Shown here piece after piece: positions 38,133 to 40,854 of a stretch of 64,000 nucleotides of DNA; position 1 is the stretch's first letter; every line of letters starts with the position of its first letter. The notes beneath the pieces were generated by a model. It was not told the DNA's origin. It saw only the letters and a program-made list of their open reading frames with translations, and did not search any database. The translations under genes were made by a program, and so were the position numbers. The DNA is from Akkermansia muciniphila (GTDB lineage: Bacteria > Pseudomonadota > Gammaproteobacteria > Burkholderiales > Burkholderiaceae_C), in contig CALQKH020000003.1 in NCBI GenBank assembly GCA_943331105.2, forward strand, positions 186,001-250,000, given 5' to 3'.

Positions 38133-39500
38133 ATGCATATACATATCTTGGGCATTTGTGGCACCTTCATGGGGGGCCTGGCCGCGCTGGCCCGCGAGGC
38201 AGGGCATCGGGTCACCGGCTGCGACGCGGGCGTTTACCCGCCCATGAGTGACCAACTGCGGGCTTTGGGCATCGAGCTCATCGAGGGTTTTGACGCCGAC
38301 CAGATGACCCTCCAACCCGACATGTACGTGGTGGGCAACGTGGTCAGCCGCGCCCGGCTGGCCGACGGCAGCCCCAAATTTCCGCTGATGGAAGCGATTC
38401 TGGAAGCCGGTGCGCCCTACACCAGCGGACCCCAGTGGCTGTCCGAACATGTGCTGCAAGGCCGCCATGTGCTGGCGGTGGCGGGCACGCACGGCAAAAC
38501 CACCACCACCTCGATGCTGGCCTGGGTGCTGGAACAGGCCGGGCTGCAACCGGGCTTTCTGGTCGGTGGCGTGCCGCTCAACTTTGGCTTGTCGGCCCGG
38601 CTGGGCGGAGGTCAATATTTCGTCATCGAAGCGGACGAATACGACACCGCCTTTTTCGACAAGCGCAGCAAGTTTGTGCACTACCGCCCGCGCACCGCCA
38701 TCCTGAACAACTTGGAATTCGACCACGCCGACATTTTTGACGACCTGGCCGCCATTGAGCGCCAGTTTCACCACCTGGTACGCACCGTGCCCGGCTCGGG
38801 CCGGGTGGTGGTCAACGGCCTGGAAGAAAGCCTGACCCGCGTGCTGGCGCAAGGCTGCTGGAGTGAAGTGCGCACATTTGGCAGCGCCGTCAGCGACTTT
38901 GTGGCCGAAGGCGAACCCTCCAGCTTCAAAGTGCTGCAGGCTGGCCAGCCTGTTGCCGAAGTGCAATGGGCGATAGGCGGCGTGCACAACCAGCTCAATG
39001 CACTGGCTGCCATCGCCGCTGCCGAGCATGTGGGGGTGAGTCCGGCTGTGGCGGCGCAAGCGCTGGCCAGCTTTGAAAACGTCAAACGCCGCATGGAAGT
39101 GCGCGGCAAAGTGAACGGCATCACCGTTTACGACGACTTCGCCCACCACCCCACGGCCATTCGCACCACCGTCAACGGGCTACGCCGTCAGGTGGGTGAT
39201 GCACGCATCCTGGCCATCTTCGAGCCGCGCAGCAACACCATGAAGCTCGGCACCATGAAAGCCCAGCTGCCCTGGAGTCTGGAAGAAGCCGATCTGGCGT
39301 TTTGTCACTCGGGCGGTTTGGGTTGGGACGCCCAAGCCACGCTAGGGCCTATGGGTGATACAGCGCAAGTGGGCGCCAACATCGACGAAGTGATTGCCCA
39401 AGTGCTGGCTCAAGTGCAGCCCGGCGACCACCTGCTGTGCATGAGCAATGGGGGCTTTGGTGGCATTCACGCCAAGCTGCTCACGGCCCTCAACGGCTGA
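38133..39500 (+). CDS. mpl: UDP-N-acetylmuramate:L-alanyl-gamma-D-glutamyl-meso-diaminopimelate ligase
   Basis: MHIHILGICGTFMGGLAALAREAGHRVTGCD; AGTHGKTTTTSML; Mpl-type Mur ligase. Confidence 0.95.
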   Translation: MHIHILGICGTFMGGLAALAREAGHRVTGCDAGVYPPMSDQLRALGIELIEGFDADQMTLQPDMYVVGNVVSRARLADGSPKFPLMEAILEAGAPYTSGPQWLSEHVLQGRHVLAVAGTHGKTTTTSMLAWVLEQAGLQPGFLVGGVPLNFGLSARLGGGQYFVIEADEYDTAFFDKRSKFVHYRPRTAILNNLEFDHADIFDDLAAIERQFHHLVRTVPGSGRVVVNGLEESLTRVLAQGCWSEVRTFGSAVSDFVAEGEPSSFKVLQAGQPVAEVQWAIGGVHNQLNALAAIAAAEHVGVSPAVAAQALASFENVKRRMEVRGKVNGITVYDDFAHHPTAIRTTVNGLRRQVGDARILAIFEPRSNTMKLGTMKAQLPWSLEEADLAFCHSGGLGWDAQATLGPMGDTAQVGANIDEVIAQVLAQVQPGDHLLCMSNGGFGGIHAKLLTALNG

Positions 39501-40617
39501 GTGAACGACGCGCCTTCACCGCATCCGACAGCACCTGCAAAACGCCTTCGCTGTCGTCCCAGCCAATGCAGGCGTCTGTGATGCTCTGACCGTAAGTCAG
39601 CTTGGAGACCTCGTGCTGACCGGGTGTGAATTTCTGGGCACCATCTTTCAGGTGGCTTTCAACCATGACGCCAAACACTTGGCGTGATCCACCGTTGATT
39701 TGCGCGGCGATGTCTTTGGCCACATCGATCTGCCGCTCGTGCTTTTTACTGCTGTTGGCGTGGCTGCAATCGACCATCAAGCTGGCGGGAAGTTTGGCGG
39801 CCTCCAATTCCTTGCAGGCAGCGGCCACACTTTCGGCGTCGTAGTTGGGCGCTTTGCCACCGCGCAAGATCACATGGCAGTCTTGGTTGCCTTGGGTCTG
39901 CACGATGGCGACCTGACCGTTCTTGTGCACCGACAAAAAATGGTGACCACGGGCAGCGGCCTGGATCGCGTCGGTCGCGATTTTGATGTTGCCGTCGGTA
40001 CCGTTCTTGAAGCCAATGGGGGCTGACAAGCCCGAAGCCAACTCGCGGTGCACCTGGCTTTCGGTCGTGCGGGCACCGATGGCACCCCAGCTGATGAGGT
40101 CACCAATGTACTGGGGCGAGATCACGTCCAAGAACTCGCTGCCAGCAGGCAGGCCTTGGCGGTTGATCTCGATCAACAACTGGCGTGCGATGCGCAGGCC
40201 TTCGTCGATCCGATAGCTCTCGTCCAAATAGGGGTCGTTGATCAGGCCCTTCCAGCCCACAGTGGTGCGCGGTTTTTCGAAGTACACGCGCATCACGATC
40301 TCCAAAGAGTCCGCGTATTTGTCACGCAGCGGCTTCAAGCGGCGAGCGTAGTCTAAGGCCGCTGCCGGGTCGTGGATAGAGCAAGGACCCATGATGACCA
40401 ACAAGCGGTCGTCTTGGCCATGCACGATCTTCTGAATGGCTTTGCGGGTTTGGGAAATAAGGGTCTCGGTGGCCGTGCCAGCAATCGGGAAAAACCGAAT
40501 CAAATGTTCTGGCGGTGGGAGCACGGTGATGTCCTTGATGCGTTCGTCGTCGGTCTGACCTTTGCGGTCGGCGGCATTCGGATACCAGCTCTCGGGGGCT
40601 GCGGTTTTGGCGTTCAT
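39490..40617 (-). CDS. aroG: 3-deoxy-7-phosphoheptulonate (DAHP) synthase, class I AroG/F/H type
   Basis: VIMGPCSIHDPAAALDYA; MRVYFEKPRTTVGWKGLINDP; MVDCSHANSSKKHERQ. Confidence 0.93.
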   Translation of the reverse strand: MNAKTAAPESWYPNAADRKGQTDDERIKDITVLPPPEHLIRFFPIAGTATETLISQTRKAIQKIVHGQDDRLLVIMGPCSIHDPAAALDYARRLKPLRDKYADSLEIVMRVYFEKPRTTVGWKGLINDPYLDESYRIDEGLRIARQLLIEINRQGLPAGSEFLDVISPQYIGDLISWGAIGARTTESQVHRELASGLSAPIGFKNGTDGNIKIATDAIQAAARGHHFLSVHKNGQVAIVQTQGNQDCHVILRGGKAPNYDAESVAAACKELEAAKLPASLMVDCSHANSSKKHERQIDVAKDIAAQINGGSRQVFGVMVESHLKDGAQKFTPGQHEVSKLTYGQSITDACIGWDDSEGVLQVLSDAVKARRSLSR

Positions 40618-40645: not shown

Positions 40646-40679
40646 AAAAAAAACCGCCGGGCTTTGGGGCTCCGGCGGT
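40646..40679 (-). terminator. attenuator terminator in the DAHP synthase leader
   Basis: Minus strand: ACCGCCGG-AGCCCCAAAGC-CCGGCGGT followed by a T-run, 29 nt before the aroG ATG. Confidence 0.88.
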
Positions 40680-40701
40680 GTGTATCGAGATATTCGGGTG
40701 C

Positions 40702-40776
40702 TTATGCGCTCGCCTCTCGTCCGCCGGGGACTGAGAACCAAAAGTAAAAAAAGTAAAAAGCAAAGCGGGAAGTCAT
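40702..40776 (-). CDS. aromatic-amino-acid-rich leader peptide of the DAHP synthase gene
   Basis: Minus strand: ATG ACT TCC CGC TTT GCT TTT TAC TTT TTT TAC TTT TGG TTC TCA GTC CCC GGC GGA CGA GAG GCG AGC GCA TAA = MTSRFAFYFFYFWFSVPGGREASA*; 9 of residues 5-14 are aromatic. Confidence 0.88.
   Translation of the reverse strand: MTSRFAFYFFYFWFSVPGGREASA
40721..40727 (-). promoter_or_regulatory. antiterminator arm in the leader ORF
   Basis: RNA CCGGCGG here is complementary to CCGCCGG of the terminator 5' arm (40672-40678), so the two pairings compete. Confidence 0.75.
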
Positions 40777-40783
40777 GGGATTC

Positions 40784-40789
40784 AATGTA
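40784..40789 (-). promoter_or_regulatory. candidate extended -10 element (TGC TACATT) for leader-aroG
   Basis: Only 7 nt separate TACATT from the leader ATG; no clear -35 seen. Confidence 0.35.
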
Positions 40790-40854
40790 GCACAGCTTGA
40801 TGACGGTTCATGACAGAGGCATCCGGGGACAAACCCGAAGCCCCATTTTCAGAA

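Follow-up and report, generated by a model that had tools for sequence, protein, structure and literature searches.

DAHP synthase gates carbon into all of the aromatic amino acids, and in E. coli the genes for this enzyme are regulated not by attenuation but by the TyrR and TrpR repressors. The attenuator of E. coli pheA (pheL) consists of a Phe-rich leader peptide and a terminator/antiterminator switch, but controls pheA and carries Phe codons only. Multivalent attenuators, where a single leader carries codons for more than one end product of a common pathway, are found at ilvGMEDA and thrABC, though for branched-chain amino acids or Thr/Ile and for other genes. A leader peptide with mixed aromatic codons, acting by ribosome stalling, is present before a DAHP synthase gene in C. 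glutamicum, where the aroR attenuator of aroF was tested experimentally (Neshat et al. 2014, as cited in PMC11802643; PMC4046766). According to these published descriptions, this actinobacterial system has no reported Trp codon and is reported to respond to Phe only. Attenuators have also been predicted before DAHP synthase genes in gammaproteobacteria, namely at Shewanella aroF, listed as sensing Tyr-tRNA (PMC2659441), and at Vibrio aroA-tyrA (PMC1173090), but these represent a different element from the one described here.

The window examined is a 64000 bp stretch of a Limnohabitans-like genome (relatives with 92–97% AroG identity are mostly Limnohabitans). Its aroG gene (coordinates 39490–40617, minus strand) encodes a 375 aa 3-deoxy-7-phosphoheptulonate (DAHP) synthase (NCBIfam TIGR00034 aroFGH, E value 3.9e-165), the nearest solved structures being Phe-sensitive DAHP synthases, and is preceded by the Shine-Dalgarno sequence GAGGA (40629–40625, minus strand). 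At its 3′ end, aroG converges with mpl (plus strand, ending at 39500), and the coding ends overlap by 11 bp (39490–39500). A second DAHP synthase encoded in the same genome (L082:1483-2559) shares 57% identity with AroG, and as no aromatic leader was found in its upstream region, only one of the two isoenzymes seems to be under leader control.

Upstream of aroG, an ORF for a 24 aa leader peptide (MTSRFAFYFFYFWFSVPGGREASA; 40702–40776, minus strand) was read from ATG to TAA. A sequence-only reading had counted nine aromatic residues in ten in this minus-strand peptide, and re-reading gave the same result, with codons 5–14 (40735–40764, minus strand) encoding FAFYFFYFWF, that is 6 Phe, 2 Tyr and 1 Trp. 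The last four residues, YFWF, are the most conserved. When the upstream regions were shuffled using a first-order Markov (dinucleotide) model and the best ORF of 9–45 codons in each shuffle was scored, seven or more aromatic residues in ten were obtained in 0 of 1800 shuffles, ruling out a chance ORF. Among 50 unique cores from the home family, the dN/dS of the aromatic core was approximately 0.07, a rough value because the synonymous rate is saturated. Synonymous swaps that keep the residue were seen in the same cores (TAC 33 versus TAT 16), with TTT/TTC and TAT/TAC interchanging freely while the amino acids stay. The aromatic core is conserved as protein under purifying selection, and aroG is thus preceded by a short ORF that is conserved as protein and in which codons for the pathway's end products abound.

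The G+C-rich hairpin and T-run that had been noted before the aroG start codon are present, and form an intrinsic terminator, ACCGCCGGAGCCCCAAAGCCCGGCGGT (40646–40679, minus strand), in which the stem ACCGCCGG...CCGGCGGT (40679–40653) is followed by U8 (40653–40646). The genome has a single occurrence of this pattern, located between the leader ORF and the gene as in known attenuators. The seven consensus stem pairs were kept in 46 of 46 aligned relatives, and one pair was broken in one relative. As the leader is preceded by a co-oriented tldD gene in the window and at most loci of the home family, the hairpin could in principle be the terminator of tldD and the aromatic ORF a coincidence. However, the ORF is conserved both as protein and by position and was not matched in any of the 1800 shuffles, and the leader is kept at loci where no motif for the TldD C-terminus was seen in the upstream DNA covered, which often spanned only a few hundred bases (at least nine loci of the home family, and 58 of 76 outside it). 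This explanation was rejected, its probability being negligible.

The leader ORF also contains the 5′ half of an antiterminator (segment 2; 40715–40727, minus strand), made up of CCGGCGG (40727–40721) and CGAGA (40719–40715), the former being, as the sequence-only reading had pointed out, the exact complement of CCGCCGG in the 5′ arm of the terminator. The 3′ half (40672–40690, minus strand) is formed by UCUCG (40690–40686) and CCGCCGG (40678–40672), and as the latter doubles as the terminator 5′ arm (segment 3), the two structures are mutually exclusive. In the window, the antiterminator was calculated at -21.8 kcal/mol versus -18.4 kcal/mol for the terminator stem, and was preferred in folding calculations when the transcript ends after segment 3. 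In the home family, RNAalifold recovered only the terminator and no covariation was seen, because the core is invariant there; the signal came from comparison between families.

Within the leader ORF, a putative protector (segment 1:2) hairpin (40710–40741, minus strand; -14.0 kcal/mol) is the least certain part of the attenuator, as it was only weakly better than shuffled sequences across relatives (mean z of -0.84 and -0.59). Some other form of translation-coupled control, for example Rho- or protein-dependent, with the leader merely setting ribosome traffic, would be consistent with so weak a protector, but is highly improbable given the strong intrinsic terminator, complete with U tract, of virtually all relatives and the antiterminator core that matches it.

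Comparison of families separates selection on the RNA from selection on codons. The core GGCGG occurs at the segment 2 site in most leaders, but is read in three reading frames depending on the family. In most of the home family it is in frame 0 (GGRE), in families f4, f7, f10, f12, f19, f22, f31 and f43 it is in frame 2 (PLADREG, PLAEEG or QAVGRR), and in f3 and f9 it is in frame 1 (RRR-type); L019, L023 and L057 are home-family leaders with natural frame shifts. It is therefore the RNA, and not the peptide, that is conserved in the tail of the leader, and this frame-switching core tells RNA-level from codon-level selection. By family, the terminator arm CCGCCAG tends to go with CTGGCGG in the leader, and CCGCCGG with CCGGCGG. 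The bases preceding the core in leader and terminator were C/C in 76 loci, T/T in 26 and A/A in 1 (n=144, with relatedness ignored), but discordant bases, which leave a core of 5–6 bp, were common (41 of 144). Exact matches between the leader and the terminator arm averaged 6.4 nt, compared with 4.4 nt when the leader codons were shuffled.

A predicted extended -10 promoter (TGC-TACATT; 40784–40792, minus strand), conserved as TGTGCTACATT, is located just ahead of the leader ORF. In the home family, 89 of 91 leaders had their best -10 hexamer 6–8 nt upstream of the ATG, as had 37 of 76 leaders elsewhere, a spacing that places the predicted transcription start at or adjoining the leader ATG (approximately 40777–40776) and predicts a leaderless mRNA. 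No Shine-Dalgarno sequence was found upstream of the leader ATG in 160 of 167 leaders, a Shine-Dalgarno-like 4-mer being present there in 7 and before aroG in 127 of the 167. The leader mRNA is, on this sequence evidence, probably leaderless. A consensus scan of the window for sigma-70 promoters and terminators picked up neither the leader promoter nor the hairpin, the bulge and loop being the probable reason in the case of the hairpin. A similar arrangement is described for Sinorhizobium meliloti trpL (rnTrpL), where the leader transcript starts with the leader ORF's own ATG and is thus leaderless (PMC7298713), but this is an alphaproteobacterial system with Trp codons only, at trpE(G).

Taken together, it is very probable that aroG is controlled by a ribosome-mediated transcription attenuator, in which stalling on codons 5–14 determines the choice between antiterminator and terminator. 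Its anatomy, conservation, frame-switching core, spacing and folding preferences are observed, while from the sequence we infer termination and stalling in the cell, the leaderless mRNA and the tRNAs that are relevant. Transcription would begin at the leader ATG or immediately beside it, with a ribosome translating the 24 codons of the leader as it follows RNA polymerase closely. When charged Phe- and Tyr-tRNA, and here also Trp-tRNA, are scarce, the ribosome would stall on codons 5–14 with its front edge short of CCGGCGG, which would pair with CCGCCGG once that is transcribed, and with the antiterminator formed the polymerase would continue into aroG. When the aromatic tRNAs are charged, the ribosome would reach the stop codon and mask CCGGCGG, leaving CCGCCGG to pair with the second CCGGCGG to form the terminator, followed by U8, and transcription would end before aroG.

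The position of the control codons agrees with this mechanism. The distance from the last aromatic codon to the core was 11–15 nt in 130 of 154 leaders, which roughly equals the span between the A site and the leading edge of a ribosome, so that in folding calculations a stall on the aromatic codons leaves the antiterminator free. Transcripts ending just past the terminator 5′ arm were folded at equilibrium with an assumed ribosome footprint removed (149 loci), and the predicted probability of the antiterminator was 0.98 with a stall at the middle aromatic codon and 0.91 at the last, falling to 0.11 two codons further on and to 0.00 at the stop codon. Predicted behaviour was alike within and outside the home family, and in the window the switch occurred at codons 13–15. 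Thus, in these calculations stalling frees the 5′ half of the antiterminator and passage of the ribosome covers it. This fit of the aromatic run to the geometry of codon stalling also bears on whether the leader might instead be an arrest peptide of the TnaC/SecM type, with a free aromatic amino acid or metabolite sensed by the nascent chain in the exit tunnel. The order YFWFS is kept in the home family beyond plain aromatic content, in favour of such a peptide, but between families the aromatic order varies freely and the tail shifts its reading frame. Nascent-chain arrest is very unlikely, and was rejected as the main mechanism in favour of attenuation by codon stalling.

The distribution of the element was examined at increasing distance. 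Among 80 orthologous loci from close relatives, 2 were cut off and left out, and all 78 with enough upstream DNA encoded an aromatic leader with the same terminator downstream of it. A covariance model of 147 positions, built from an alignment of the leader region, matched 137 of 399 Burkholderiales genomes (E ≤ 0.01), approximately 100 of the matches being full length and the remainder mostly bare terminators. In 90 of 90 full-length or near-full-length matches that were fetched, aroG (58–100% identity) was directly downstream. No aromatic leader was found upstream of 60 further DAHP synthase loci, which were orthologues mostly from genomes without a full-length match together with paralogues, indicating that the element is patchy across the order yet specific; among these control loci, aroG lacks the element in many families of Burkholderiales. 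As the aromatic run and the competing stems were conserved in order and spacing at aroG orthologues, their loss in relatives, which would have spoken against the original proposal, was not found. Outside Burkholderiales, when 232 genomes were searched at the level of the class, two full-length matches turned up, both at aroG and in one family. These leaders (L263, MNAARASFYFWYYFPKPLAEEGLRSP, and L264) use the PLAEEG frame, and may reflect horizontal transfer together with aroG or an older origin.

No Rfam family matched the window. Phe_leader (RF01859) was the sole Rfam attenuator family giving full-length matches at these leaders, in two relatives, but the scores of 30.8 and 30.0 bits place the aroG leader outside Phe_leader by that family's gathering threshold of 55 bits. 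None of the NCBIfam and Pfam models matched five representative leader peptides, and no report of an aroG leader element in Burkholderiales was found in the open-access literature. The aroG leader is a real, well-conserved and uncatalogued family of classical ribosome-mediated attenuation. To judge by its sequence it works in a pheL/trpL-like manner, with every attenuator feature that can be examined at this level other than a clearly supported protector hairpin. The initial proposal of attenuation by the pheA/trp/his logic is thus strongly supported, all of its elements being preserved at aroG orthologues with the expected order and spacing.

The further suggestion that one gene senses the whole aromatic pool fared less evenly. 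Phe codons are present in 167 of 167 leaders and Tyr codons in 162, but Trp codons are found in only 107 (absent from 36%), in 78 of 91 home-family leaders versus 29 of 76 outside; these leader counts exclude L116, where the wrong ORF had been picked. In C. glutamicum, aroF with its AroR leader (Phe-Tyr-Phe) is reported to respond to Phe and not to Tyr (PMC11802643). On the residue counts and this precedent, a Phe/Tyr sensor is the safe reading. There is close to an even chance that the attenuator is in effect a sensor of Phe, or of Phe and Tyr, with little contribution from the Trp codon and perhaps from Tyr; several home-family lineages have Ala, Phe, Ser or Gly in place of Trp, and AroG itself is closest to Phe-sensitive enzymes. 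However, the Tyr that opens YFWF hardly ever changes (pN 0.015), and 42 of 50 unique home-family cores retain Trp, which lies in the stretch of codons on which stalling leaves the antiterminator free to form. From the sequence, a sensor of all three amino acids is plausible in leaders that have Trp in the YFWF zone. More tentatively, the leaders may form an order-wide leaderless attenuator family in which the first step of the shikimate pathway answers all three aromatic tRNAs via the YFWF switching zone, natural lineages that lost Trp or, rarely, gained His codons being ready-made sensor variants.

In eight leaders (L062, L063, L066, L075, L018, L029, L033 and L049) the Trp codon has been lost with all else kept (FYFAYFFIS, FYFAFSV). 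Two related leaders before aroG (L052:2816-2961 and L056:2819-2966) have His in place of several aromatic codons (FYFWHFHIQH and FYFWHFHLPPH), and in other leaders a single His replaces Tyr. The His codons of L052 and L056 may reflect added sensing of His or drift.

The Trp-less lineages are natural test cases for the sensing of Trp, and the occurrence of natural leaders with and without Trp makes the sensing of each amino acid by a mixed leader directly testable. In many families of Burkholderiales the main aroG gene appears to be under tRNA-charging control via an element that is absent from Rfam, and its conservation across these families strongly suggests that the pathway is switched on when charged aromatic tRNAs are scarce.
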